A DNA stretch of 64,000 bases from the NCBI RefSeq assembly GCF_014217545.1, contig NZ_CP043178.1, forward strand, positions 3,534,001 to 3,598,000, written 5' to 3'. The stretch's first letter is position 1, and each line of letters starts with the position of its first letter. Below the pieces are notes generated by a model. That model was not told where the DNA came from and made no database searches. It was given only the letters and a program-made list of their open reading frames with translations. This DNA is from Pseudarthrobacter sp. NBSH8. Lineage in GTDB: Bacteria > Actinomycetota > Actinomycetes > Actinomycetales > Micrococcaceae. Of the stretch, positions 38,784 to 52,780 are shown piece by piece. Position numbers and translations under genes: made by a program.

Positions 38784-39683
38784 TTGGACACCAATGCGGT
38801 CGGTCTTGAAGACGGTACGGCAGGCGACAGCACGCCCGGAAACCTTACACATGCCTGGCTCGGCGACGTATTCCCCGACGTTCCGCTGTCCAAGGCCCAG
38901 AGCCGGGTGGTGGATGTCATCGGCCGCAATCCGCAGCTTTCCTCCTACGCCGACATCGCCGAAATTGCCCAGCGCGCCGATGTCAACAATTCCACGGTGG
39001 TCCGCGCCGCCCAGCATCTGGGCTACCGCGGCTGGCCCGACCTCCAGCGGGAACTGCGCTCCCGGTACCTCGTGATGATCTCCACCGAGGACACCCTGAC
39101 CGAGCACGGCGAACACCGCAGCCCCCTGCACGACGCGATCAACCACGACATCGAGAACCTGCGCCTGACGCTGGACTCCAACACGGCCGACGACGCCGAG
39201 GCCGCCATTGCTGCCATGGCAGCCGCGAAGTCCATCACCGTCGTCGGGCTTGGCTCGTTTGCTGGGCCCGCCAGCGTCATGGCACACCTGGGTTCCACTA
39301 TGGGCTACCCCATCACCTTGGAGAACCGCGGCGGCGTCCACCTCGCCTCCAGCACCAACACCCTTGGCCCCGGGGATGTACTGGTGGTCATCAACATGTG
39401 GCGCTCCATCCGGCAGATCATTGTCACCGCCGAGGCCGCGAAGCAGGCGGGCGCCACGGTCATTGCCATCAGCGACATGCGCCGCGGCCGCCTCGCAGCA
39501 GCGGCCGACCACCTCCTGGTGGTGGCCTCGGAAGGGATCTCCTTCTTCCAGTCCGTCACCGGCGCAAACTCCCTGGTCTATGGCCTGCTCGCGGGCATGG
39601 AGGCGGCGCACCCCGAACGCAGCCGCACCGCCATCCGCCGCACCCAGCAGCTCTGGAAAGACCTGGACATCTATCTCGACTGA
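38784..39683 (+). CDS. MurR/RpiR family transcriptional regulator
   Basis: The 299-aa protein has an N-terminal HTH_6 domain (about residues 30-105, IAEIAQRADVNNSTVVRAAQHLGYRG) and a C-terminal SIS sugar-phosphate-binding domain (ITVVGLGSFAGPASVMAHL, GATVIAISD). It starts at TTG 38784, supported by GAGGAGG 6 bases upstream. It leads an operon with a hydroxyacid dehydrogenase, an aldehyde dehydrogenase, an M20 hydrolase and a DUF3100 membrane protein and probably controls it. Confidence 0.88.
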   Translation: MDTNAVGLEDGTAGDSTPGNLTHAWLGDVFPDVPLSKAQSRVVDVIGRNPQLSSYADIAEIAQRADVNNSTVVRAAQHLGYRGWPDLQRELRSRYLVMISTEDTLTEHGEHRSPLHDAINHDIENLRLTLDSNTADDAEAAIAAMAAAKSITVVGLGSFAGPASVMAHLGSTMGYPITLENRGGVHLASSTNTLGPGDVLVVINMWRSIRQIIVTAEAAKQAGATVIAISDMRRGRLAAAADHLLVVASEGISFFQSVTGANSLVYGLLAGMEAAHPERSRTAIRRTQQLWKDLDIYLD

Positions 39684-39734
39684 CCCCGGCACCACTGACA
39701 GGCCCCACACCGCATACCTTTCCCAGGAGTTTTT

Positions 39735-40646
39735 ATGAACACCAGCACCCACCGCCGCGTCGCCGTCATAGGCCTCGGCGCCATGGGCGGAGCGATGGCC
39801 GCCACCCTCCACCGCGCCGGGTGGGACGTCACCGGTTTCGACCCGTCAGACTCCGCCCGGGCTGCCGCTTCCGAAGCAGGAATCGCCACCACCGCCGACC
39901 TCGCGGACGTCGCCGGAACCGCCTACGCGGTCCTCTCCCTCCCCGCGGCCAGCATGGTGGAAACCACTGTGCCCCAACTCCTGGCAGCACCCGGAACCGT
40001 CGCAATCATCGACACCACCACCTCCGAACCGGGCACCAGCAAGCACATGGCAGAGCTGGCGGAAGCACAGGGGGCAGCCTTCGTGGACGCGCCGGTGTCC
40101 GGCGGCCGCGACGGCGCCGCAACCGGATCCCTGAGCGCCTTCGTCGGCGCAACCGACGGCGCCCTCAAAGCGGCCGAACCTGTCCTGCTCGCCCTCACCG
40201 GCGGCAAGTACAGCCACATCGGCGGCCCCGGCAGCGGCAACGTGGTCAAACTCCTCAACAACGTCCTGGCCGCGGCCAACCTGGTCTCCGTGGGCGAGGC
40301 CCTCGGCGTCGCCAAGGCCTACGGCATCGATCCCGCCACGGCCGCCGCCAGCATCAGCGAAGCCTCCGGCGGCAGCAAAGTCTCCGCGAACATGTATCCG
40401 AACTGGGTCCTCAGCGGCACCCACAATTCGGGCTTCTCGCTGGGCCTGATGGCACGCGATGCCGCCCTCGCCGTGGAGGTCGCCGCGCAGATCGGCGAAA
40501 AGCCGGCACTGCTCGCCGCCGTCGCAGGCCAGTGGCAGGAGGCCTTGGCCGCCCTCGGGCCGCGGGCCGACTTCACCGAAATCGCCAGGACCGTCGCCCC
40601 GGCCATCACGCCCGCCGGCGCCCCCAGCACCAGCCCGGACAACTAA
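39735..40646 (+). CDS. 3-hydroxyisobutyrate dehydrogenase-family oxidoreductase
   Basis: This 303-aa beta-hydroxyacid dehydrogenase has the Rossmann motif VIGLGAMGGAMAATLHRAG, the substrate loop DAPVSGGRDGA and the catalytic lysine in GSGNVVKLLNNVL. AGGAG precedes the ATG. The family includes 2-hydroxy-3-oxopropionate reductase and L-threonate dehydrogenase. Co-occurrence with an aldehyde dehydrogenase suggests stepwise oxidation of an alcohol or hydroxyacid. The specific substrate is unknown. Confidence 0.85.
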   Translation: MNTSTHRRVAVIGLGAMGGAMAATLHRAGWDVTGFDPSDSARAAASEAGIATTADLADVAGTAYAVLSLPAASMVETTVPQLLAAPGTVAIIDTTTSEPGTSKHMAELAEAQGAAFVDAPVSGGRDGAATGSLSAFVGATDGALKAAEPVLLALTGGKYSHIGGPGSGNVVKLLNNVLAAANLVSVGEALGVAKAYGIDPATAAASISEASGGSKVSANMYPNWVLSGTHNSGFSLGLMARDAALAVEVAAQIGEKPALLAAVAGQWQEALAALGPRADFTEIARTVAPAITPAGAPSTSPDN

Positions 40647-40701
40647 GCACCGCTCCCGTCGCTTAAGCAGCCACTCCCCCCAGCCCCGAAGGACCACCAC
40701 C

Positions 40702-42249
40702 TTGAGCATCACCACAGCACCCGCCTCCTCCTCGGCAGCCACCGCCCGGGCCGTCCTGGACGCAGCCTTCCCAACCGGCCTCGGCTCCTTCGTTGACGGC
40801 AAAGTAGTCTCGGGCAGCGGCGAAAGCATCACGCTCACCGCGGCCGCCACCGGCGAACCCTTCGCCACCTACTCGGACCCCGGCGCCGAGGGTGCCAACG
40901 CCATCCTGGAAAGCTCGACGGCGGGCGCGGCGGCCTGGGCCGCGCTGAACGGCTTCGAACGGGCAGCCATCCTCCGCAACGTCAGCCGCGTCGTCGAGGC
41001 GCACGGCGAGGAACTCGCCATCCTCGAGTCGGCCACCACCGGAAAGCCCATCCGTGACGCCCGCGTCGAAGCCGCCAAGGTGGCCGAAATGTTCGGCTAC
41101 TACGCCGGCTGGGCAGACAAGCTGACCGGCCAGACCATCCCCGTCCCCGGCAACTGGCACACCTACACCGAGCGTGTGCCGTGGGGCGTCGTCGTCGCCA
41201 TCACCCCGTGGAACGCCCCCCTGTTCACCGCCGGCTGGAATTCCGCCGCCCCGCTGGCGGCCGGCAACGCCGTGATCGTCAAGCCCAGCGAATTCACCCC
41301 GGCCTCCTCGGTCCGTCTCGCCCAGCTGGCCCACGAAGCAGGGCTCCCCGCCGGCGTCTTCAACGTCGCCGCAGGGCTGGGCCAGACCGTGGGCGCCACC
41401 CTCACCACTGACCGCCGCGTCGGCAAGATCAGCTTCATCGGCTCCGTCCCCACCGGCCGCAGGGTGGCCGTCGCGGCAGCGCAGGCCGGCATCCCCGCCT
41501 TGTTGGAACTCGGCGGCAAGAGCGCCAACATCGTGTTTGCCGACGCCGACCTGGACCGGGCCGCGGACGGCGCCGTCTCGGCGATCTTCTCCGGTGCCGG
41601 TCAGTCCTGCGTCGCCGGATCACGGCTCCTCGTGGAGCGCAGCGTCCACGCCCAGTTCGTTGAAATGGTCGCCGAGAAGGCTGCCCGGCTGCGGCTCGGC
41701 GACCCGCTGAGCGCGGACACCGAGGTGGGCCCCATCATCACGGCCCAGCAGTTCGCCACCGTCAACTCCCTCATCGCGGCAGGAATCAACGACGGCGGCC
41801 GCCGGGTCACGGGGGCCGCGCTTCCGGACGCGCTGGCCGGGTCAGCGCTGGCCGGCGGGCACTGGGTCATGCCGACGCTGCTGGACGGCGTCACGCCGTC
41901 GAACCGGCTCGAAACCACAGAGGTCTTCGGCCCCGTGGTGGGTGCGGATGCGTTCGACACCGAGGCTGAGGCCATCGCGCGCGCTAACAACACCAATTTC
42001 GGCCTGGCCGGTGCGGTGTGGACCTCCGACGTTTCCCGGGCGCACCACGTTGCCCGCGCGGTGAAGGCCGGTACGTTCTGGATCAACTCCTACAAAACCA
42101 TCCACGTGGCGGTCCCGTTCGGCGGCTTCGGCGATTCCGGCCACGGCCGTTCCTCCGGCCCCGGGGTCCTGGACGAGTACACCCAGACGAAGGCCATCTG
42201 GGTTCCCACGTGCGCGGCAGGTTCCCCCTTCCCCTCGCTGTCCTACTAA
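40702..42249 (+). CDS. NAD(P)-dependent aldehyde dehydrogenase
   Basis: The start is TTG 40702, 8 bases after GAAGGA; the longer frame upstream overlaps the previous gene and is rejected. The 515-aa enzyme shows ITPWNAPLFTAGWNSA, the general-base glutamate in LELGGKSANIVF, the catalytic cysteine in GAGQSCVAGSRL and the cofactor element ETTEVFGPVV. It oxidises an aldehyde to an acid. It is in the RpiR operon between the hydroxyacid dehydrogenase and the M20 hydrolase. Confidence 0.9.
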   Translation: MSITTAPASSSAATARAVLDAAFPTGLGSFVDGKVVSGSGESITLTAAATGEPFATYSDPGAEGANAILESSTAGAAAWAALNGFERAAILRNVSRVVEAHGEELAILESATTGKPIRDARVEAAKVAEMFGYYAGWADKLTGQTIPVPGNWHTYTERVPWGVVVAITPWNAPLFTAGWNSAAPLAAGNAVIVKPSEFTPASSVRLAQLAHEAGLPAGVFNVAAGLGQTVGATLTTDRRVGKISFIGSVPTGRRVAVAAAQAGIPALLELGGKSANIVFADADLDRAADGAVSAIFSGAGQSCVAGSRLLVERSVHAQFVEMVAEKAARLRLGDPLSADTEVGPIITAQQFATVNSLIAAGINDGGRRVTGAALPDALAGSALAGGHWVMPTLLDGVTPSNRLETTEVFGPVVGADAFDTEAEAIARANNTNFGLAGAVWTSDVSRAHHVARAVKAGTFWINSYKTIHVAVPFGGFGDSGHGRSSGPGVLDEYTQTKAIWVPTCAAGSPFPSLSY

Positions 42250-42290
42250 AGCGTCCTCCTCATGCGTCCAACTGAAGCAGGCAGGTACTT

Positions 42291-43517
42291 ATGGAACTGA
42301 CAGACACCACCCCCGCGATGGCTACTCTCCGCGGGGCCCTCGCGGACGGCGTCGAACGCTGGAAGCCCCGGGTCCAGGCCCTGGCGCGGGAAATCCACGC
42401 CCACAAGGAGATCTCGTTCGAGGAGGTCCGCTCGGCCGAGGCCATTGCGGCCCTGCTGGCAGAGGGCGGTTTCGCGGTGGAGCGCGGCACAGGGGGCCTG
42501 CCCACCGCGTTCACGGCGAGCGCCGGCAGCGGTGAACTGACCGTCGCGCTGTGCGTGGAATACGACGCACTCCCGGACATCGGCCACGCCTGCGGGCACA
42601 ACCTGATCGCGGGCGCCTCCGTCGCAGCGGCCCTTGCGCTGCAACCCTACGTCGACGTACTGGGCATCACACTGAAGGCCATCGGAACGCCCGCCGAGGA
42701 ACACGGCGGCGGCAAGGTGCTCATGCTGGAACAGGGGGGGTTCGACGGCGTCGGGCTGGCTTTGATGGTCCACCCCGTTCAGGACGGCCTGACGTACAAC
42801 CCGGCCGGTACCAGCGCCCAGGCCGTGGGCCGGTACAAGGCGACGTTCACCGGGAAGGCCGCGCACGCTGCGGCAGCGCCGCACCAGGCCGTCAACGCCG
42901 CCGATGCAACCGTCCTGAGCCAGGTGGCCATTGGTCTGCTCCGCCAGCAGATCCCCGGCGACCACCGCATCGCGCTGTACGTTGCCGAGGCCGGCCACGT
43001 CACCAACATCATTCCGGACCGGGCGGTGATCCAGTTTGAGTGCCGCGCCTTCACCCTGCCGGAATACGAGGCGCTGCTTGAGCGGGTCCGCCGCTGCTTC
43101 GAAGGGGCCGCGCTGGCCACCGGAACCACACTGGACATCGAGGCAACGGAGCCCCTCTACGAACCGCTGCTCCAGGACAACGCCCTGGCTGCGCACTGGA
43201 CGGCGGCGATGGACGCGTTCGGCAAGGACACCTCGCCCTCGGCCGGCCTCAGCGGCGGGTCAACCGACATGGGCAACATCTCCCAGGTCATCCCGTCCCT
43301 GCATCCCTGGCTCAGCATTCCCGGGGCCAACGTACCCATTCACTCGCACGCGTTCGCCGCGCTGGCCGACACCGCCGGGGCGTACGGCGTGATGTTCGAG
43401 GCAGCCACCGCGCTGGCCTGGACCGTCGCCGCCGCGGCCTCAACCCCCACCGAACGGGAACGCTTCACCAAAGCGGCATACCGCCGTCGTACTCTCACTC
43501 AGGAAGGCACATCATGA
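42291..43517 (+). CDS. M20 family amidohydrolase (aminoacylase/AbgA-like)
   Basis: The 408-aa metallohydrolase belongs to peptidase M20D. It has the metal-site elements CVEYDALPDIGHACGHN and GTPAEEHGGGK, a dimerisation lid (TFTGKAAHAAAAPHQAVNA) and the C-terminal SHAFAALA. Enzymes of this type release amino acids from N-acyl or aminobenzoyl conjugates. Its stop overlaps the DUF3100 start by 4 bp, implying that hydrolase and membrane protein work together. Confidence 0.88.
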   Translation: MELTDTTPAMATLRGALADGVERWKPRVQALAREIHAHKEISFEEVRSAEAIAALLAEGGFAVERGTGGLPTAFTASAGSGELTVALCVEYDALPDIGHACGHNLIAGASVAAALALQPYVDVLGITLKAIGTPAEEHGGGKVLMLEQGGFDGVGLALMVHPVQDGLTYNPAGTSAQAVGRYKATFTGKAAHAAAAPHQAVNAADATVLSQVAIGLLRQQIPGDHRIALYVAEAGHVTNIIPDRAVIQFECRAFTLPEYEALLERVRRCFEGAALATGTTLDIEATEPLYEPLLQDNALAAHWTAAMDAFGKDTSPSAGLSGGSTDMGNISQVIPSLHPWLSIPGANVPIHSHAFAALADTAGAYGVMFEAATALAWTVAAAASTPTERERFTKAAYRRRTLTQEGTS

Positions 43518-44887
43518 GTACCAGCACCAAAACCACACGGATCGACAAAGCTGGTGCCCGGCTGACGCTTCCGGTCGCCGCCCTGGCCTTTGTCATCGCG
43601 CTGGCCGTCCAGTTCATCGGCCAGGCCAAGATCGATATCGGAATCGGCGCAATCGTCATCTTCCCCATGGTCTGGGGCCTCATCCTGGGGCTCCTGGTCT
43701 CCATCCAGAAGTTCAAGCCCCTGGGCCTGGACCTGCAGCGGATCGCCGCCGCCCTGGTGGGCGTGGCCGTGCTGCTGCTGGTGGCCAGGCTGGCGTTCAA
43801 CATCGGGCCCAGCCTCCCCAGCCTGATCAAAGCAGGGCCGGCCCTGCTGCTGCAGGAAGTGGGGCACCTGCTGGGCACCATCATGCTGGCGCTCCCCCTG
43901 GCCGTCCTGCTCCGGATGGGCAAGGCAACGGTGGGCGCTACGTTCTCCCTTGACCGGGAGCCGTCCTTCGCCATGGTCTCCGAAAAGTACGGCCCCGACT
44001 CGGACCAGTACCGCGGAGTGCTGGCCATGTATGTCTTCGGAACGCTGTTCGGCGCCGTGTACATTACGCTGCTCACTTCACTGGTGGCCAACTGGAAGAT
44101 CTTCGATCCGCTGGCCCTGGCGATGGGCGCCGGCGTGGGATCCGGCTCCATGATGGCGGCGTCCTCGGCGAGTATCATCGCGGCCTACCCGGCGGACCAG
44201 GAAGCCATCCTGGGCATGGCGGCGGTGTCCAACCTGATCACCACCATCCTGGGCGTCTACGTAGGCATCTACATCGCGCTGCCGCTTGCGGACCGTTTCT
44301 ACAAGCTCCTCACCCGCAGGCAGACCCGTGAAGCTGCGGCGGTCACAGCAGGGGCCCCCGCCGAGCGCGGCCTGGCCGACATTGAGCGGGAAGAGGTCCA
44401 GGCCGAAGAAAACCGCCGGTTCCGCGAGCGGGTTGCCGAATCCTCCGCAGCCATCAAGCTCCCGCTGTGGCTGTCCCTGTCCGTCCTGACGGTCCTGGGC
44501 ATCGGCACGGCGTCGGTGGCGGCCAAGGGCTTCAGCCTGACGATCGTCGCCGGGTACGGAATCATGCTGGCACTGGTCCTGGTGAGCGTTGCCCTGGCGA
44601 AGGTTACCAAGAAGATTTCGGCGATCGTCTACATCACCACGATCGGCGCCTACATCTCCAGCCCGTGGTTCTTCGGGGCGGAGTCGCTCACAACGGTCAT
44701 CAAGACGGTCGACTTCCTGTCCATCGCCACGGTGATGCTGACGCTCGCGGGCCTGTCTTTGGGCAAGGACATCCCCTTGCTGAAGAACATCGGCTGGAAG
44801 ATCATCCCGGTGGGCCTGGTGGCCATCACCGCGTCCTTCCTGCTCTCCACCGTGATAGCGGAGTTCGCCCTCGGGCTCTGGCACTAA
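43514..44887 (+). CDS. DUF3100 membrane protein, copy A (putative transporter)
   Basis: The 457-aa protein has about 10-11 hydrophobic segments, with a charged cytoplasmic loop near residues 275-315. Conserved elements shared with the paralog at 49984 are LLQEVGHLLGT, the GAT(F/W)S(L/I)DRE loop, YRGV and a GSGSMM-type small-residue stretch before a YP pair. The symmetric layout resembles ion-coupled organic-acid carriers, so import of the M20 hydrolase substrate is a reasonable inference. Function is not established for DUF3100. Confidence 0.8.
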   Translation: MSTSTKTTRIDKAGARLTLPVAALAFVIALAVQFIGQAKIDIGIGAIVIFPMVWGLILGLLVSIQKFKPLGLDLQRIAAALVGVAVLLLVARLAFNIGPSLPSLIKAGPALLLQEVGHLLGTIMLALPLAVLLRMGKATVGATFSLDREPSFAMVSEKYGPDSDQYRGVLAMYVFGTLFGAVYITLLTSLVANWKIFDPLALAMGAGVGSGSMMAASSASIIAAYPADQEAILGMAAVSNLITTILGVYVGIYIALPLADRFYKLLTRRQTREAAAVTAGAPAERGLADIEREEVQAEENRRFRERVAESSAAIKLPLWLSLSVLTVLGIGTASVAAKGFSLTIVAGYGIMLALVLVSVALAKVTKKISAIVYITTIGAYISSPWFFGAESLTTVIKTVDFLSIATVMLTLAGLSLGKDIPLLKNIGWKIIPVGLVAITASFLLSTVIAEFALGLWH

Positions 44888-44894
44888 CATGCAA

Positions 44895-44949
44895 CGCGGG
44901 GTCACTTACGGCCCAATAATAGGCACTTATTGGGCCAAAAGTGACCCCG
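44895..44949. terminator. Stem-loop after the RpiR operon
   Basis: GCGGGGTCACTT and CGGCCCAATAA pair with TTATTGGGCC and AAGTGACCCCGC, leaving small mismatches. No T-tract follows. Confidence 0.65.
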
Positions 44950-44994
44950 CATTGGGCCACCCCTCCCCACTGCTTTCGCGGCGAAGGTGAACGG

Positions 44995-45020
44995 TCGACG
45001 GCGGGACCTCCCGCCGTCGT
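44995..45020. repeat. REP-like palindrome, copy 8
   Basis: CGACGGCGGGA pairs with TCCCGCCGTCG around CC. Its edge reaches the stop codon of the GntR gene (45020-45022), so it acts as that gene's 3' end. Confidence 0.85.
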
Positions 45021-45688
45021 CAGCTTTCGGGGAGGCGCCCGGCCAGTCCTTGGAGCGACGGTTCACGGCCCAGCTCCACGTGTGCGAAGGCCAGCGCCGC
45101 CGCCAGGTCCGGCTTGCCGTCATAAATGGCCTGGCACAGGCTCAGGTGCTCCGCACACTGAACCTGGGGGTCACGGTGCCCGGTCAAAGTGAAGAGCCAC
45201 TGCATCCTGCCCAGCAGGGGCTTCATGGAGGACTCCAGCAGCGAGTTGCCCCCCATCGCCACGATCTCTGCGTGCAGGGCCGTATTGCTGAGCGGTATCT
45301 GCGCATGGTCGTGGCGCAGGGTTGCTTCTTCTGCCTGGTCCATCATTTGCTGCAGCCGCGACGACGGCTGGCCTCTTGCCGCGGCCTGGGCCGCGAGGCG
45401 TGCGGCGAGGACTTCCAGGCTGAGCCGCACCTCAAAGAGCTCGTTGACGTCGCGCAGGGTGATCTGCTTGACGGTGGCACCACGCCGGGGGGAGGCGTCA
45501 ATGAAGCCTTCGGCTTCGAGCTGCTGGAGGGCTTCCCGGACGGGCACCCGGGAAACAGCCAGAGTCTGGGACAGCTCACGTTCCCTGAGCCGGGACCCCG
45601 GCGCGAAGTCACCGGAGATGATCAACTCCCGGATCCGGGCCCGGGCAGTATCAGCCGAGGACGCCGGGGCTTCCGCTTGGACGGCCAT
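45020..45688 (-). CDS. GntR family (FCD-type) transcriptional regulator
   Basis: The 222-aa protein has an N-terminal GntR winged helix (RIRELIISGDFAPGSRLRERELSQTL, VSRVPVREALQQLEAEG) and a C-terminal FCD effector domain whose metal-binding residues are in the ALHAEIVAMGGN and CAEHLSLCQAI stretches. GGGAGG 5 bases before ATG 45688 sets the start. It lies downstream of the cyclodeaminase gene on the same strand. The perfect palindromes CTTGGTATACCAAG at 48.3 and 49.9 kb contain the TGGT/ACCA half-sites of this family and are its probable targets. Confidence 0.9.
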   Translation of the reverse strand: MAVQAEAPASSADTARARIRELIISGDFAPGSRLRERELSQTLAVSRVPVREALQQLEAEGFIDASPRRGATVKQITLRDVNELFEVRLSLEVLAARLAAQAAARGQPSSRLQQMMDQAEEATLRHDHAQIPLSNTALHAEIVAMGGNSLLESSMKPLLGRMQWLFTLTGHRDPQVQCAEHLSLCQAIYDGKPDLAAALAFAHVELGREPSLQGLAGRLPES

Positions 45689-45732
45689 TCATTCCTCCCG
45701 TTATTGCTGCGAAACCATACTTCCGCGCTTAC

Positions 45733-46719
45733 TCAGTTATTCAGCTCCACGCGGGTGCCAACCCCCTGATGGAGCGCAGCGTCGTACAGGAGCCGCCCGA
45801 TGGCAAGATCCTGCAGACCTATACCAACCGAGTTGAACAAGGTTACGTCCTCATCACCCAGGCGACCTGCTTTTGTCCCCGCCGCCACGTCACCGAGCTC
45901 GGCTTCCACATCCTCAAAGCTCATCACACCTTCGGCCACCGGGATGATCAGCCCGCCTGATTTGGCCCTGGCCGTGGCCAGACTGTCCACGAAGACCCTG
46001 GCCCTCACCATGCCCGCCGAATCAATCTCCCGGTGGTCCGCCCGCGGACGGGATCCGACGGCGTTCACGTGCAGCCCGGGCTGGAACCACTCGCCCCTAA
46101 CCACCGGCTCAACGGCCGGCGTGAGGGTGCACAGCACATCGGCAGCCGCCACCACTTCCCGGACGCTGGCCGCCCGCGTGACGTTCAGGCCGTAGTGGGA
46201 AATCTCGTCACAGAAGGCGGCGACCGTGTCCGCGGAACGGGACCACACCACGACGTTTTCAATCGGGAGGACGGCCAGCATGGCTTCCACGTGGGCAACG
46301 GCCAGGGCGCCTGCACCGACCAGTCCCAGGGTGGTGCTGCCGGGCCTCGCGAGGAGCTTCGTCGCCACCGCACTGGCAGCGGCAGTGCGGACCCGTGTGG
46401 GGACTTTGCCGTCCAGGATGGCCAGGGTTTCGCCGGTTAGCTGGGAGACAAGCATGATCGTGGACCGCTGCGTGGGCAGGCCGGACTCCCGGTTTGCCGG
46501 GATGTCCGCCAGTAGTTTGACGGACGCGAGCTCCTCGGCGCTGGACAGCGCTGCCATCGGCAGGAACCTCGCGTCCGAGGACGGCAGGAGGAGCGAGTCC
46601 GGCGCCGGCTGAAAGGCGGTGCCCCGGCTGAGGCCGGCAAAGACGCGTTCGACGGCGGCAATGGTCCCCGGCATATCGGCCAGGGTCTGGAGCTCGGAGG
46701 CTTTAAGAATCAAGGTCAT
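45733..46719 (-). CDS. Ornithine cyclodeaminase/mu-crystallin family protein
   Basis: The 328-aa NAD(P)-dependent protein shows the family pattern: RTAAASAVATKLLARPG, the dinucleotide-binding LGLVGAGALAVAHVEAM and the DVTLFNSVGIGLQDLA end. Members include ornithine cyclodeaminase, alanine dehydrogenase and ketimine reductase, so the reaction cannot be fixed from sequence. It is followed 44 bp later by the GntR regulator, probably in one transcript. With three amidohydrolases nearby it may process an amino or imino acid released by them. Confidence 0.85.
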   Translation of the reverse strand: MTLILKASELQTLADMPGTIAAVERVFAGLSRGTAFQPAPDSLLLPSSDARFLPMAALSSAEELASVKLLADIPANRESGLPTQRSTIMLVSQLTGETLAILDGKVPTRVRTAAASAVATKLLARPGSTTLGLVGAGALAVAHVEAMLAVLPIENVVVWSRSADTVAAFCDEISHYGLNVTRAASVREVVAAADVLCTLTPAVEPVVRGEWFQPGLHVNAVGSRPRADHREIDSAGMVRARVFVDSLATARAKSGGLIIPVAEGVMSFEDVEAELGDVAAGTKAGRLGDEDVTLFNSVGIGLQDLAIGRLLYDAALHQGVGTRVELNN

Positions 46720-46823
46720 GGGTGGCTTTCTGGGTTGGGAGGGCGCGTTTGCCGGGTAGCTCAGACGGCTCGGGCAGGAGGAAGGTGGTCGGGGACAGCG
46801 TCGCGTTTGTCCTTACCGACCGA

Positions 46824-48161
46824 TCAGAGGTCATTCCGTACAAGGACTCCCTGCGCCACCACTGCCCTTATTTCTTCCAGGGCCGAGGCACTGTTCAAGG
46901 GATCAGAATCCACGATGATCGCGTCTGCAAAGGAACCGCGTACCAGGCGTCCTGCACTCTCACTCCAGCCGAGCAGGGCGGCGGCGTTGACTGTCGCGGC
47001 CCGTAGCGCGTCCAGTGGTGAAAGCCCGGCCTCAGCAAGCAGACGCGCTTCTGTGCCTATGGGGGTCACATCGGATCCGAAGGAATCCGTCCCTGCCACC
47101 ACCGTCACACCGGCTTCATGGGCAGCCCTCACGGCTGCTTTGATGATGGGCGTGTACTCCGTGCCGCGAGCGGCAAGAATCGGGTTGGAAGAACCAGCCA
47201 TGCTCGTGATGGCGTCCAATGTGGGTGTGAAGTAAGTGCCACGGCGGGCCATCAGCGAGATGGTCTCCTCGCTGACGAAGACGCCGTGCTCGATGCTGCG
47301 CACACCGGCCCGGACGGCACCGCCTATCCCCTCTGCGCTGTAGGCGTGGCAAAGCACGCCTGCTTTGCCTGCGGCCTTAACCACTGCAGAGAGCTGTTCG
47401 TAGGTGTAGACCAGTTCGCGGGGGTCCTGTTCCGCCAGGCCTGCCCGGGGATTGGCCCGGGTCTTGATCACCTGTGCACCGCGTTTCAGGTTGACGCGGG
47501 TGAGGTAGGCAAGGTCCGTCGGTGCGGTGACTCCCCCGGCCAGGGATGCAAGCGGTGCAAGGTCCGGGTCAGCGAGGAGCGAGGCCCCAAGATCGGGTGA
47601 GATGAACAGCCCGGCGGGGCTCATCCGGGGTGAGGCGCCGGCGGCCCAGGCAGGCAGGGCAGCGAGGGCCACGTCCTGGTAGAAGCTGCTTGAACCACTT
47701 CTGACGCTGGTCGCTCCGCCCTGCAGGATGGCCCGCGCATCCGAAAGAGCGTTCGCATGGACATGCACGTCGATAAGGCCGGGAAGCACCCACCGCCCGG
47801 AGGCATCCACGATGCGGGCACGGCCTGCAAGGGCGGCTACCGCACGCCGTGTTTCGTCCCGGGTGCCGGCCGCGGTGACCTTGCCTCCTTCCAGCACAAG
47901 GACCCCGTCCTGCACTGCGTTGCCCGTTTTGGGGTCCACTATGGTGCCGCCCTCGATGATCATCGGCGGGGGCGAAGCGGGGCGGTCAGGATAGACGGGG
48001 CCTGATGTGTTGCCCGCTGCCCTCGCCGCCGGGGCACTTCCGAGCTGGGCAGCCAGGCTTGCCACCGAGATTCCCGCCAGGGCGGCCGCTCCGGCCAGGA
48101 TGCCGCGGCGGGGAACAGCAGTTGGTGGCAGGACAGCGGAGGTGTGATCGTGCAGGCACAT
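46824..48161 (-). CDS. Tat-exported amidohydrolase (imidazolonepropionase-like)
   Basis: The 445-aa protein starts at ATG 48161 after GGAGAGA. Its N-terminus has a twin arginine (RR18-19) before a hydrophobic stretch (LAGAAALAGISVASLAAQLG) and an ARA cleavage site, so export by Tat with its metal bound is likely. The catalytic domain has DVHVHANA, a lysine in QVIKTRAN, LCHAYSAEG, SIEHGVF and VAGTDSF, the full metal set. Proline- or imidazole-type amide hydrolysis outside the membrane is possible. A promoter carrying the GntR palindrome lies upstream. Confidence 0.86.
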   Translation of the reverse strand: MCLHDHTSAVLPPTAVPRRGILAGAAALAGISVASLAAQLGSAPAARAAGNTSGPVYPDRPASPPPMIIEGGTIVDPKTGNAVQDGVLVLEGGKVTAAGTRDETRRAVAALAGRARIVDASGRWVLPGLIDVHVHANALSDARAILQGGATSVRSGSSSFYQDVALAALPAWAAGASPRMSPAGLFISPDLGASLLADPDLAPLASLAGGVTAPTDLAYLTRVNLKRGAQVIKTRANPRAGLAEQDPRELVYTYEQLSAVVKAAGKAGVLCHAYSAEGIGGAVRAGVRSIEHGVFVSEETISLMARRGTYFTPTLDAITSMAGSSNPILAARGTEYTPIIKAAVRAAHEAGVTVVAGTDSFGSDVTPIGTEARLLAEAGLSPLDALRAATVNAAALLGWSESAGRLVRGSFADAIIVDSDPLNSASALEEIRAVVAQGVLVRNDL

Positions 48162-48287
48162 TGTTCTCTCCAATGAGAAAGGCCCTGACGCAGGCGCGCG
48201 GGTCCGGTGTCGGTAGGTCAAAGTGGTGGTTCCACCGAGGGCGGATCGGCTTGCACCGCAGTGTGCTGGAATCCCTCGAGTAACTTC

Positions 48288-48316
48288 ATTCTATCGCTCT
48301 TGGTATACCAAGCCAA
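48288..48316 (-). promoter_or_regulatory. Promoter with GntR-type palindrome (amidohydrolase gene)
   Basis: On the minus strand TTGGCT (48316-48311) and TAGAAT (48293-48288) are 17 bp apart. The perfect palindrome CTTGGTATACCAAG (48299-48312) lies almost entirely inside the spacer, a typical repressor position. Confidence 0.7.
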
Positions 48317-48350
48317 GAGCGAGCGAATGAAGAGCCGAAGGTTGCGGCCG

Positions 48351-49838
48351 TTACGGGGCAGCGATCGGCTGAGCGATTTCCGCGCGTGGATAGGTGGGCG
48401 GAAACAGCTCGTCAGGCTCCCGGAGCCGGGCGTCCCGTACCGAGTAGGCCGCCCGCATCGCGTCGAACAGCCGCTGCCCCTCAACCCGCAGCGCGTCAAG
48501 GTCTATGCCGGGAAGGGCGCCGCCAACCACGACCGGGCGCCCTGCAACGAAGGTGTCGGTCACCTGGCGCGCCGTCCCGTTGAGCACCAGCGTCCGTAGC
48601 GGGTCTTCGACGACGCCGTCGCCGAAGTCGGCCAGGGAGACCACCGTGATGTCGGCCTGCATGCCGGGGGCAAGCCTCCCCAGGTCAGCGCGCCCAAGGG
48701 CCCGGGCGCCGCCGAGGGTGGCGGCGTCGAAATAGTCGGCCAGGGTCCCGGCGTCAGGCCTTCCCTCGACCAGCCGGGTCAGGTGCATGCCGGCGTCCAT
48801 GCCGCGCACAAGATCCGGCGGGAAGGAGTCAGTGCCCAGGCAAATGTTGATGCCTGCTTCGCGGAAACGGTCGAATGAAACAAGCTGCTTCTGGTAGCGG
48901 AACGATGTCAGCGGGCAATGGACAATGCTGACGCCGTGGCGGGCCAGCGTGTCAAGCGGGCCGCCCGGCGCTGACGCGGCAGGGTCCTTGCCGTCGATCA
49001 CCACACCATGCGGGATCAGAAGCCTCGTGCCGAACAGGCCGGTGGATTCGAGCAGTTCCAGGACGCCGCGTCCGGCGGATTGCTGCAGGAGCCCGTCCTC
49101 GAGCGGGGACTGAAGGCAGTGCAGCCGGACCAGCGAGTCCCGCTCCCTGGCGATTTGCGCCGTCTGCCGCATCAGGTCTTCGGACAGCGTCTCAATGCGG
49201 CACGGCAGCAGGGCCCCGGTGACGAGCGGGTCCGCGAGACCCGCGGCGTAGTCCATGAAGCGCTCTGCGTCGCGCAGGCCTGCAAGCCCCCGGGCCTCGT
49301 CGAAGTGGACCTCGCGGTCGCCTGCTGCGGTGATGACATGGACCCCGGAACGGTAGGCCGGCCCCAGGTAGCCGCGCAGTCCGATCCGGCGGCTTGTCTC
49401 CGCCATGTCCACAAGCTCATCGAGGCCTTCGGCCCAGGAACTGTGGATTTCCGAGGCGATCGGCATGTAGGTCGTAATGCCGTGCAGGGCGAGCTGCGCC
49501 AAGGCGAACTCGCGGATCGTGGCGCGCTCCGAGGGCGTGAACACGTCCCGGCGACGGTTGGCGAAGTAGTCCTCCGACCACAGGTGGCCGGCGGCGGCAT
49601 CGGGCGAAGGCCACGAGTCCAGGATGAGGTGATCGATGTCGGCGAGGGCGTCGAGGTCTATCAAGCCAGGCATGACCAAACTCTGGCCATAGTGGTGCTC
49701 CTCATCGACTGGGCCCACATAGTCGCGCCCCACGAAAACGATGGCATCCCCCTCGTAGACAACTTCGCCGTCCTCGATGAGCGTGTGCCCTGTTCCGTCG
49801 AACCCCAGAACGTACCGGGCCGAGATTTTCTTGTACAA
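48351..49838 (-). CDS. Amidohydrolase-family protein with altered metal motif
   Basis: AAGGAGG 4 bases before TTG 49838 fixes the start of this 495-aa protein. It resembles chlorohydrolase/guanine deaminase-like amidohydrolases, with later histidines (RLHCLQSP, IPHGVVIDG, IVHCPLTS) and the GTDSFPPD aspartate conserved. The first motif, normally GLxxxHxH, reads MPGLIDLDALADIDH, so both metal histidines are absent. Either another ligand set is used or the protein is not a standard hydrolase. It diverges from the second DUF3100 gene across a GntR palindrome. Confidence 0.78.
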   Translation of the reverse strand: MYKKISARYVLGFDGTGHTLIEDGEVVYEGDAIVFVGRDYVGPVDEEHHYGQSLVMPGLIDLDALADIDHLILDSWPSPDAAAGHLWSEDYFANRRRDVFTPSERATIREFALAQLALHGITTYMPIASEIHSSWAEGLDELVDMAETSRRIGLRGYLGPAYRSGVHVITAAGDREVHFDEARGLAGLRDAERFMDYAAGLADPLVTGALLPCRIETLSEDLMRQTAQIARERDSLVRLHCLQSPLEDGLLQQSAGRGVLELLESTGLFGTRLLIPHGVVIDGKDPAASAPGGPLDTLARHGVSIVHCPLTSFRYQKQLVSFDRFREAGINICLGTDSFPPDLVRGMDAGMHLTRLVEGRPDAGTLADYFDAATLGGARALGRADLGRLAPGMQADITVVSLADFGDGVVEDPLRTLVLNGTARQVTDTFVAGRPVVVGGALPGIDLDALRVEGQRLFDAMRAAYSVRDARLREPDELFPPTYPRAEIAQPIAAP

Positions 49839-49891
49839 CGTGCCTCCTTGGCGAACAGCGGATAAATGTGACTTGCCTCTCAATGAGTACG

Positions 49892-49919
49892 AGTATACAG
49901 TCACTTGGTATACCAAGAA
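49892..49919 (-). promoter_or_regulatory. Divergent promoter with GntR-type palindrome
   Basis: The palindrome CTTGGTATACCAAG is at 49904-49917. On the minus strand a TTCTTG -35 (49919-49914) and TGTATACT extended -10 (ending 49892) frame it with a 16-bp spacer. The plus-strand DUF3100 gene starts 67 bp away, so one operator could control both directions. Confidence 0.65.
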
Positions 49920-49983
49920 CCAGGTTCCGCAATGCGGGATGTTTTAGTTCTGATTCCTGATCCCCCCTCGAAAGGCCTGCGTC

Positions 49984-51441
49984 ATGCGCAATGAAGCGAA
50001 GACCACAGGCGGCTCCGTGTCCGCCCTTGTGGACGCGCCGCCGTCCCGTTCTTTCCGCGCCCGCCCCGCCCTGTGGCTGGTGATGATCGCACTCTCCACC
50101 GCCATCTGTGCCGCAGCCATCTTGATCGGCACTCACAAGTTCCAGCTCGGACCGGCCGCAATCGTCCTGATGCCCATCCTGTGGACCGTGCTCATCGGCG
50201 GATTCCTCGGTGTCCAGAAATGGAAACCCATCGGCGGGCGTGCCCGTGCGGTGTCCACCCACCTGATGGACGTATCCATAGTTTTCTTCCTGGCAGGTCT
50301 GGGCACTCAGATAGGTCCGTCGCTGACGAAGTTCACCGGCCTCGGCCCTGCAATACTCCTGCAAGAGGTGGGGCACGTGCTCGGCACGGTGATCCTGGCC
50401 CTGCCGGTCGCGGTGGCCCTTGGCCTGGGCCGCACTGCGATCGGCGCCACCTGGTCGATCGACCGTGAGTCCTACCTTGCCTTCGCCATCCAGCGCTTTG
50501 GTGTCCGCTCCCCCGAGTACCGCGGCGTGTTCGCAGTGTGGGTGCTGGGCAGCGTCTTTGGCGCCGTGTTTATCTCCCTCCTGGCCGGCCTGCTCGGCGG
50601 AATGGACTTCTTTGATCCCCGGGCCCTCGCGTTGGGCCTGGGACTGGGGTCCGCCTCCATGATGCTCGGGGGCGTGGGCGCCCTGTCCATCCTGTATCCG
50701 GAGATGGCCGGGGAGATCATGGCCCTCGCTGCACTGTCCAACCTCGTCACCAACATCGTCGGGTTCTACGCAGGTGTCTTTATTGCGCTGCCGATGTGCC
50801 AGAAGCTTTACAAGATGTGGTCCCGCATTTTCGGGCGGGACGACCTTGGCCGCCGTGTCCCCCGCGGCGCCCTCATAGGCGCTGCGGCTGGAACCCAATC
50901 GGGCAGCTCAGGTCAGGCACACCTGGGCGCCGCAGCGCTCGAGTCCCGTGGGGCCTCGGGCATCGACACCGTGGACGTCAACAGCATCGAAGAGGATCCC
51001 GTTGTTGTCCGGACACCCAGGACGTGGCTGATCGCGTTCGCCGCGACCGGGGTGGCCGGCTTCCTGCTCAACGCCCTCGGTACAGGTTCACTGCTGCCAC
51101 TGGATGCCGTCGGCATCCTCATCCTGCTGGCCCTCACCGCCATCGCCCTTGTGCTCGCCAAGCTCGTCCCGGTGGTTCCGTCCAGCATCTGGGTCCTGGC
51201 TCTGGCAACCATCGCCTCCGCGACGTTCCTGCCCATGGGCCCCTTCGTTGCCTCCGCTACGCAGCACATCAGCGTCCTCTTCGCCGGCCTGCCCATGATT
51301 GCCCTGATCGGCATGTCGCTTGGCCGTGACGTCAAGGCCCTGCGCTCACTGAGCTGGAAGATCGTCATCGTCGCCCTCATGACGTTCACCGCGAGCTTCG
51401 TCGCCGCAGCAGCCATCGCGCAGGCTGCCTTCCACTTCTAG
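49984..51441 (+). CDS. DUF3100 membrane protein, copy B (putative transporter)
   Basis: The 485-aa protein is a paralog of the one at 43514 and aligns through its whole length (LLQEVGHVLGT, GATWSIDRE, YRGVFAVWVLGSVFGAV, GLGLGSASMM, LYP). It has similar hydrophobic segments and a longer polar loop near residues 280-345. It pairs with the cytosine deaminase-like enzyme downstream and the divergent amidohydrolase. This mirrors the hydrolase/DUF3100 pairing of copy A. Substrate transport is inferred. Confidence 0.8.
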   Translation: MRNEAKTTGGSVSALVDAPPSRSFRARPALWLVMIALSTAICAAAILIGTHKFQLGPAAIVLMPILWTVLIGGFLGVQKWKPIGGRARAVSTHLMDVSIVFFLAGLGTQIGPSLTKFTGLGPAILLQEVGHVLGTVILALPVAVALGLGRTAIGATWSIDRESYLAFAIQRFGVRSPEYRGVFAVWVLGSVFGAVFISLLAGLLGGMDFFDPRALALGLGLGSASMMLGGVGALSILYPEMAGEIMALAALSNLVTNIVGFYAGVFIALPMCQKLYKMWSRIFGRDDLGRRVPRGALIGAAAGTQSGSSGQAHLGAAALESRGASGIDTVDVNSIEEDPVVVRTPRTWLIAFAATGVAGFLLNALGTGSLLPLDAVGILILLALTAIALVLAKLVPVVPSSIWVLALATIASATFLPMGPFVASATQHISVLFAGLPMIALIGMSLGRDVKALRSLSWKIVIVALMTFTASFVAAAAIAQAAFHF

Positions 51442-51475
51442 CTAGTACATGCTTCTTCCAGTACATGCTGCGGTA

Positions 51476-51511
51476 GGGGAGGCACCGGTCCCGCGGGATC
51501 GGTGCCTCCCC
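51476..51511 (+). terminator. Stem-loop between DUF3100 and amidohydrolase genes
   Basis: GGGGAGGCACCG pairs with CGGTGCCTCCCC around a GC-rich centre. No T-tract follows and it precedes a likely co-transcribed gene, so it may attenuate or process rather than end the message. AGTACATGCT is repeated just upstream (51446 and 51462). Confidence 0.55.
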
Positions 51512-51547
51512 AGCCGTCATTCATAGCCCAGCCGAAAGGAATGAACA

Positions 51548-52780
51548 ATGCTCATTACCAACGTCCGCCCCTGGGGCGGGGACGCCGTAGACCTTGAAGT
51601 TCGCCAAGGGCGGATCGCGGCCCTTCACCCCGCGGGGACCGCCGTCGTAGCAGCAGACGCCGACGGCGGGGCGGTCGACGGACGGGGCCGGATCGCCGTG
51701 CCCGCGTTCACCGACGTGCACGTCCATCTCGACTCGACCAGGATCGGGCTGCCGTTCCGGGAGCACACCGCCTCGCCCGGCGTGTGGAACATGATGTGCA
51801 ACGACCGGGAAAACTGGCGCGACACCCCCGTCCCCTACGGCGATGTAGTGCGGGGAACGCTGGAACGGATGATTGCGCGGGGCACCACTCGCGTCCGTTC
51901 CTACGCCCAGATCGACGTGGACTGCAAGCTTGAGCGCTTCGAGGCAGTCATGGCCGCGAAACAGCACTTCGCCTACGCCGCCGATGTGGAAGTCATGGCC
52001 TTCCCGCAGGCAGGCCTGCTGCTCGAGGACGGCACTGTCCCGCTCCTTGAGGAGGCCCTCCGCGCAGGTGCGACAACCATCGGCGGCATTGATCCCTGCC
52101 AGCTGGAGCGTGACCCGGTCCGCCATCTGGACATTGTCTTCGGTCTGGCGGAGAAGTACGGCGTCGACGTCGACATTCATCTGCACGAGCCTGGCCACCT
52201 GGGGGTCTTCAGCGCGGAACTTATCTTCGAACGCACCCGCGTGCTGGGGATGGAGGGTCGCGTCTCGCTGTCCCACGCTTACGATCTCGCCAATGTCCAC
52301 CCCGATGTGACCGCTCGGCTGGTGGAGCAGATGGCCGATCTCGACATTGCCTGGGCGACGGTCGCCCCGGCAAGCGGCGGGTCGCAATTCGACCTCGCCC
52401 GGATGACCGAGGCGGGGATCCGTGTCGGTTTGGGCGAGGACGGGCAGAGGGACTACTGGAGTCCCTACGGCAATTGCGACATGCTCGACCGCACGTGGCA
52501 GTTGGCCTTCACACACCGGCTGCGCAAGGACCGGCTGATCGAGCACTGCGCGGCGATCGCCACCATCGGAGGCGCATCAATCATGGACCGAAGCGTCCAG
52601 CGCCTCACCAGCCCCGACGACCGGCCGGGCCTGGCTCTCGGAGATCGGGCGGACATCGTCCTGGTTGATGGCGAGACCATCACGAGCACCGTCATGGACC
52701 GCGGCACCGACCGCACCGTCATCCACGATGGCCGGCTCGTCGCCGACGGCATGGTGGTTCTTCCGAACCCGGCCGCATAA
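51548..52780 (+). CDS. Cytosine deaminase-like amidohydrolase
   Basis: The 410-aa protein follows the CodA/AtzC pattern: HVHLDSTR (metal HxH), SYAQIDVDCKL, DIHLHEPGHLG (with histidine ligand), SLSHAYDLA and VGLGEDGQRDYWSPYGN. Members deaminate cytosine, isoguanine or N-alkyl ammelides. AAAGGA is close to the ATG. It shares the strand with DUF3100 copy B 106 bp upstream. The substrate is unknown; a cyclic amide or amidine would suit the fold. Confidence 0.85.
   Translation: MLITNVRPWGGDAVDLEVRQGRIAALHPAGTAVVAADADGGAVDGRGRIAVPAFTDVHVHLDSTRIGLPFREHTASPGVWNMMCNDRENWRDTPVPYGDVVRGTLERMIARGTTRVRSYAQIDVDCKLERFEAVMAAKQHFAYAADVEVMAFPQAGLLLEDGTVPLLEEALRAGATTIGGIDPCQLERDPVRHLDIVFGLAEKYGVDVDIHLHEPGHLGVFSAELIFERTRVLGMEGRVSLSHAYDLANVHPDVTARLVEQMADLDIAWATVAPASGGSQFDLARMTEAGIRVGLGEDGQRDYWSPYGNCDMLDRTWQLAFTHRLRKDRLIEHCAAIATIGGASIMDRSVQRLTSPDDRPGLALGDRADIVLVDGETITSTVMDRGTDRTVIHDGRLVADGMVVLPNPAA

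Follow-up and report, generated by a model that had tools for sequence, protein, structure and literature searches.

The window analyzed here is a stretch of 64,000 nucleotides from Pseudarthrobacter sp. NBSH8 (contig NZ_CP043178.1, positions 3,534,001 to 3,598,000), whose genome is a single contig of 4.06 Mb. It carries two genes of the membrane protein family DUF3100 (PF11299), copy 1 (43514..44887, plus strand) and copy 2 (49984..51441, plus strand), which match the family model with 300.7 and 283.5 bits against a gathering score of 27. The genome has no other PF11299 match, and the two proteins are 34% identical across 462 aligned positions. Both are predicted carriers of the CPA/AT fold, and each lies beside hydrolase genes at the coordinates given in a sequence-only reading of this DNA. 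The genes around copy 1 (module A, 38784-44887) and copy 2 (module B, 45020-52780) differ in their enzymes and regulators.

In module A, the gene directly 5' of copy 1 encodes an M20 amidohydrolase (42291..43517, plus strand; TIGR01891, 201.8 bits vs a cut-off of 153.75). The two genes overlap by 4 bp, as reported earlier, and inspection of the junction sequence agreed. The closest solved structures are HmrA (3ram) and a Xaa-Arg dipeptidase (7yh4), and the ligand-type residues H99, C101, H103, E136, E137, H161, and H351 are conserved in at least 93% of 86 aligned copies. The sequence-only reading was right about this part of the module but placed its start too late and left two dehydrogenases out of its argument. 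The module begins with a MurR/RpiR regulator (38784..39683, plus strand; Pfam HTH_6 2.7e-12, SIS 5.7e-7), which sits 5' of module A in most actinobacterial module A loci surveyed. Next comes a beta-hydroxyacid dehydrogenase of the HIBADH family (39735..40646, plus strand; NAD_binding_2 and NAD_binding_11), whose best solved relative is 2-hydroxymethylglutarate dehydrogenase (3cky); among the matches listed, none reached an NCBIfam cut-off. The aldehyde dehydrogenase that follows (ALDH; 40699..42249, plus strand; Aldedh 1.9e-150) has an approximate start, its open reading frame (ORF) opening at 40459, and its closest NCBIfam families are the BADH and HpaE types, both below cut-off.

Module B opens with a GntR/FCD regulator (45020..45688, minus strand; GntR 1.7e-19, FCD 8e-18) and an enzyme of the ornithine cyclodeaminase/mu-crystallin (OCD) family (45733..46719, minus strand; OCD_Mu_crystall 3.4e-66). 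The OCD gene shares the strand of the PRK06151 gene described below and, in Micrococcaceae loci, is found repeatedly together with GntR and PRK06151. A prolidase-type amidohydrolase (46824..48221, minus strand; Amidohydro_1 1.9e-28) scores 189.9 bits against the Xaa-Pro dipeptidase model NF051886, under its cut-off of 500. Its translation has, by eye, a twin-arginine-like N-terminus with an RR..AxA signal, and the enzyme is probably exported. The unusual amidohydrolase noted earlier as divergent from copy 2 was identified as PRK06151, annotated as 'chlorohydrolase family' (48351..49916, minus strand; NF004801, 662.7 bits vs a cut-off of 416). It lies 67 bp from the copy 2 ATG if its TTG start is correct; the protein may be shorter, since the family-model match starts only at residue 28. 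Downstream of copy 2 is an AtzC-like amidohydrolase of the cytosine deaminase superfamily (51548..52780, plus strand), previously called cytosine deaminase-like. That label was rejected because PRK05985 (NF004636, 372.5 bits, under the cut-off of 408) and N-isopropylammelide isopropylaminohydrolase (6nbo, 239 bits, 8.8e-70) are closer, cytosine deaminases scoring at most 94 bits. Its metal-site residues H58, H60, H211, H243, and D298 are conserved in at least 93% of 18 aligned copies.

The genome holds 9 M20 and 17 Amidohydro_1 matches, and 8 of the latter fall between 3.53 and 3.66 Mb. Such regional density could raise the rate of chance adjacency, and therefore the pairing had to be tested in other genomes. 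The survey set comprised 118 sequences: the window, 54 genome-contig loci, 27 plasmid regions out of about 70 matched, and 36 genome regions (35 from the same genus). These loci, mostly from Micrococcaceae, were found via copy 1 or via PF11299 within the genus, and served as targets for tblastn searches with window proteins and annotated neighbors as references. Among 130 DUF3100 matches, 117 spanned at least 330 residues and were taken as full copies; 13 fragments were excluded.

An M20, AstE, PRK06151, or AtzC-like match was found within 1.7 kb of 110 of the 117 full copies (genome contigs 48/50, same-genus genomes 39/39, plasmids 21/26, window 2/2). Some genomes were present twice in the survey, and a separate count without identical sequences gave 104/111. 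Clustering at 80% identity, in which one too-short copy was skipped, left 36 representatives. Within a 2-kb limit 29 of these were paired (25 with M20, 3 with PRK06151, and 1 with AstE) and 7 were not. As a control, a single one of 133 listed hydrolase matches, each counted once, lay at a distance of at least 3.4 kb from any DUF3100 copy; the M20, HIBADH, and ALDH references were drawn partly from DUF3100 neighbors, so that distant M20 genes lying far off may escape such controls. In 62 cases an M20 gene stood immediately 5' of a DUF3100 gene with the same orientation, and 52 of these junctions allow an exact 4-bp overlap. Loci combining DUF3100 with amide or amidine hydrolases span Actinomycetota, Pseudomonadota, a Fusobacterium, and a haloarchaeon. 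Within the loci sampled, the pairing is real and strongly conserved. The lack of association that would have spoken against the sequence-only reading was not seen, and chance neighborhood was rejected on the survey counts.

Seven full copies have none of the listed hydrolases within 1.7 kb (L061, L074, L091, L093, L094, L098, and L100). Four of them (L061, L074, L094, and L100) retain the HIBADH and ALDH genes, and the L061 and L074 genomes encode M20 relatives of the window enzyme elsewhere (at best 52% and 45% identity).

The commonest arrangement is module A in the form RpiR-HIBADH-ALDH-M20-DUF3100, with exactly these four listed partners within 6 kb of 39 copies. The full module is also present in Streptomyces and Leucobacter (L065, L069, L126, and L073), and the proteobacterial loci L096, L097, L114-L117, L123, and L124 have the module A enzymes with a LysR regulator. 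Counting listed partners within 6 kb, shorter forms comprise RpiR-M20-DUF3100 (n = 7) and M20-DUF3100 (n = 13). The RpiR-M20-DUF3100 form in L060, L062, L063, L082, and L090 lies near common flanking genes, and Tgt and a queuosine precursor transporter are annotated there in L090. The L060 contig is titled Sporosarcina beigongshangi and the other four loci are from Arthrobacter; the DUF3100 of L060 shares 78% identity with copy 1, and the contig may be mislabeled or recently transferred. The enterobacterial plasmid loci L095, L120, and L121 combine DUF3100 with M20, and the LysR gene adjoining in L095 and L120 exceeds the TdcA cut-off. A Sulfitobacter locus encodes LysR, a threonine/serine-dehydratase type enzyme, Rid, DUF3100, and a DoeB-like AstE.

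All 29 module B cases have PRK06151 and DUF3100 in divergent orientation, and 18 of them also have an AtzC-like gene no more than 2 kb away; GntR, OCD, and a prolidase-type gene are added in a Micrococcaceae subset. Loci L128, L136, L137, and L139 have module B with no module A in their flanks. The two modules are therefore separable, and RpiR and GntR, read earlier as a sign of distinct but related substrates, do belong to different modules.

In a quick maximum-likelihood tree of the 36 representatives, the three copies linked to PRK06151 form a single clade (support 100) next to the actinobacterial M20 clade. M20 partners were scattered over the tree, and the label was no more clustered than in shuffles. 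Because PRK06151 partners form one clade and M20 partners are scattered, M20 may be the ancestral partner, replaced later by PRK06151; the tree is unrooted, with weak deepest forks and two long end branches. The earlier claim of independent pairing with amide hydrolases is thus retained as regards the recurrence of the tie, but not as regards free independence.

DUF3100 is unevenly distributed. PF11299 was present in 60 of 150 same-genus genomes and exceeded the cut-off in just 3 of 296 genomes sampled across the phylum, the window's own genome included. Copy 1 matched 70-71 of 72,556 plasmid records by tblastn. Plasmid-borne DUF3100 genes were found in E. coli, Salmonella, Hafnia, and Klebsiella (L095, L120, L121, and L091), three of these four loci also having M20 and a TdcA-type LysR gene. 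The E. coli form was detected by blastn in 8 of the 5,426 complete genomes of that species, every one plasmid-borne. The full-length matches at L156 8958-10410 and L154 8689 have a short first open frame and are probably broken copies.

The predicted structure of DUF3100 is of the secondary-transporter type and has the NhaA/CitS-type (CPA/AT) fold. The N half of copy 1 contains two broken helices with one helix between them (segments 138-159, 164-194, and 199-224), and copy 2 is alike (151-172, 177-206, and 212-237). DUF3100 differs from CPA/AT transporters such as NhaA, the 2HCT protein CitS, and the Asp/Ala exchanger AspT in having no significant sequence relation to them. Comparison with CPA/AT families by hhalign gave non-significant probabilities of 0.5% and 1.3% from a shallow DUF3100 alignment (Neff 2.9), the alignments landing on a G-x-x-L...G motif. 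A test for a repeat between the N and C halves returned a single short motif (E 0.007, probability 5.6%). A DUF3100 profile search of PDB sequences gave no matches, Foldseek gave none at E<=0.001 for copy 1 against the PDB or copy 2 against BFVD, and PF03390 (2HCT) was not among the best 25 of 27 families at E<=10 for 58 DUF3100 members. Seventeen plasmid-borne copies appear to be divided between two ORFs, and in two such pairs the C-terminal ORF had no Pfam match. The family tables in the accessible parts of two 2021 transporter surveys do not list DUF3100 (PMC8396727; PMC8562792). The names DUF3100/PF11299 and PRK06151 were not found in the literature searched, which leaves out most subscription journals, so that novelty is unproven.

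Context and predicted fold together support reading DUF3100 as a carrier. With a probability of roughly 60%, it is an elevator-type secondary carrier of the CPA/AT fold that imports small carboxylated amide-type compounds for cytoplasmic hydrolysis by the neighboring enzymes; we infer the import direction, the coupling ion, and the substrates. The best context evidence for inward transport comes from PRK06151 relatives in S. meliloti, Alloyangia, and Paroceanicella, the three records examined of 85 matched. Like module B, these loci have the PRK06151 and AtzC-like pair (the latter 37-40% identical to the window's), with GntR in two of three. Unlike module B, they have Dpp-type ABC importer genes in place of DUF3100, and a CDA-type deaminase (two loci) or an allantoinase (one) is added. 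Six DUF3100 queries found no match in these stretches of 18-19 kb. ABC importer and DUF3100 thus fill one slot, and the same-genus locus L141 has DUF3100, PRK06151, an AtzC-like gene, and Dpp-type genes all together. The earlier proposal that DUF3100 carries amide-type compounds is accordingly favored by the hydrolase tie, the predicted fold, and this displacement; the hydantoins and cyclic ureas it named lack direct support.

In module A, copy 1 would import an N-acyl-amino-acid-like compound whose amide M20 would cleave in the cytoplasm. The HIBADH-like and aldehyde dehydrogenases would then oxidize a hydroxymethyl-bearing product (CH2OH to CHO to COOH), and RpiR would sense the substrate or a product. 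M20 (TIGR01891) and AstE-type enzymes both cleave N-acyl amino acids, which suggests these as the cargo. The preferred product is a beta-hydroxy amino acid, for example serine. The HIBADH family oxidizes beta-hydroxy acids, and one member, D-phenylserine dehydrogenase, uses a beta-hydroxy amino acid, according to the accessible part of its description (PMC2963168). An L-serine ammonia-lyase lies 4.3 kb from the L101 DUF3100, and L096 has Tdh and Kbl; with the TdcA-type regulator and the dehydratase, these neighbors make us lean towards serine or threonine derivatives as the cargo. Ectoine-type DoeB/DoeB2 (N-acetyl-diaminobutanoate deacetylase) was rejected, the scores falling below cut-off in L113 (291.9 vs 402.7), L097 (348.5 vs 550), and the window M20 (50 vs 550). 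Pfam and NCBIfam scans of unusual neighbors in L061, L093, L112, and L164 added no substrate clue, and a literature search on N-acyl amino acid uptake found no matching paper.

The abgABT system combines uptake of p-aminobenzoyl-glutamate with hydrolysis by an M20 enzyme. Module A resembles it in pairing a carrier with an M20 amidohydrolase that would act after import, and the aminobenzoyl-glutamate utilization protein 3io1 is a distant relative of the window M20. However, AbgT belongs to another transporter family, with no AbgT model among the DUF3100 Pfam matches listed, and module A has two dehydrogenases beyond abgABT.

In module B, copy 2 would import an amino-substituted N-heterocycle or cyclic amide that bears a carboxylate, which PRK06151 and the AtzC-like enzyme would deaminate or hydrolyze; the prolidase-type enzyme may release the cargo outside the cell as a first step. 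An aminated ring compound is the likely cargo, because both enzymes belong to deaminase-rich amidohydrolase families. PRK06151 stands out as a subgroup with an altered metal site, judged by its motifs: the strand-1 HxH is replaced by DxL (PGLIDLDAL for PGLIDxHxH). The motif PG[LF]IDLDAL[ATM]DIDH is present in 29 of 29 DUF3100-linked copies, some genomes being counted twice, and in two of the three alphaproteobacterial relatives by pattern, the third having PGFVDLDAL by eye. Without the strand-1 HxH, the chemistry may be unusual.

Several other explanations were weighed. Transport direction cannot come from genome context, and some CPA/AT families are exporters (LysO and PSE, for example), as available portions of a survey state (PMC8396727); both points weigh against import. 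DUF3100 might then be a safety valve that exports a hydrolysis product or an inhibitory analogue. This is unlikely, since a Dpp-type ABC importer with its solute-binding protein occupies the DUF3100 place in module B-type loci and the catabolic dehydrogenases of module A need a substrate, most simply from outside. The tight M20 overlap and the seemingly two-ORF plasmid copies also count against a carrier and would suit a membrane subunit or scaffold for tethered hydrolysis. That role is improbable, given that the predicted fold matches carriers, the partner families are unrelated (M20, AstE, and PRK06151), and some copies have none nearby. The regional cluster of Amidohydro_1 genes likewise tells against an import system, and could make the pairing a by-product of a catabolic gene island in which DUF3100 has an unrelated role. 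This explanation is largely refuted and very improbable, as the pairing repeats in other phyla and on plasmids, 4-bp overlaps are common, and the control with its partly DUF3100-derived references placed almost no hydrolase match far off.

A more specific alternative for module A is a pantothenate catabolic operon, in which pantothenate enters through DUF3100 and is cleaved by M20 acting as the pantothenase; the HIBADH-like enzyme would then oxidize pantoate at C4, and ALDH would yield dimethylmalate. The enzyme types match the classical pathway as generally known, and the full set is the commonest arrangement in the sample. The accessible part of a 2023 paper gives the identity of the P. fluorescens pantothenase as unknown (PMC10393543). 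Nevertheless, the annotations of the full-set loci L096, L097, L115, and L117, whose gene tables are incomplete, show no gene of the dimethylmalate-dehydrogenase type. Moreover, 20 copies have M20 alone (13) or RpiR and M20 alone (7) of the listed partners, and the Sulfitobacter locus has AstE and threonine dehydratase instead. A literature search on pantoate dehydrogenase found no paper. The pantothenate operon is therefore improbable, and slightly more so is the larger proposal that module A forms the full route from pantothenate uptake to oxidation, supplying genes for the orphan pantothenase and pantoate oxidation, with DUF3100 founding an unrecognized split-and-fused CPA/AT family.

The evidence, including the predicted fold, supports reading DUF3100 as a new family of transporters within a familiar type of system, uptake followed by cytoplasmic hydrolysis. 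A so-called domain of unknown function that occurs in 60 of 150 genomes of the genus, and in enteric bacteria on conjugative plasmids, would thereby gain a predicted carrier role whose cargo can be tested, and its conserved partners, hydrolases and dehydrogenases, point to candidate compounds. For the evolution of the CPA/AT fold, DUF3100 would be a further example of a family that is both split and fused.

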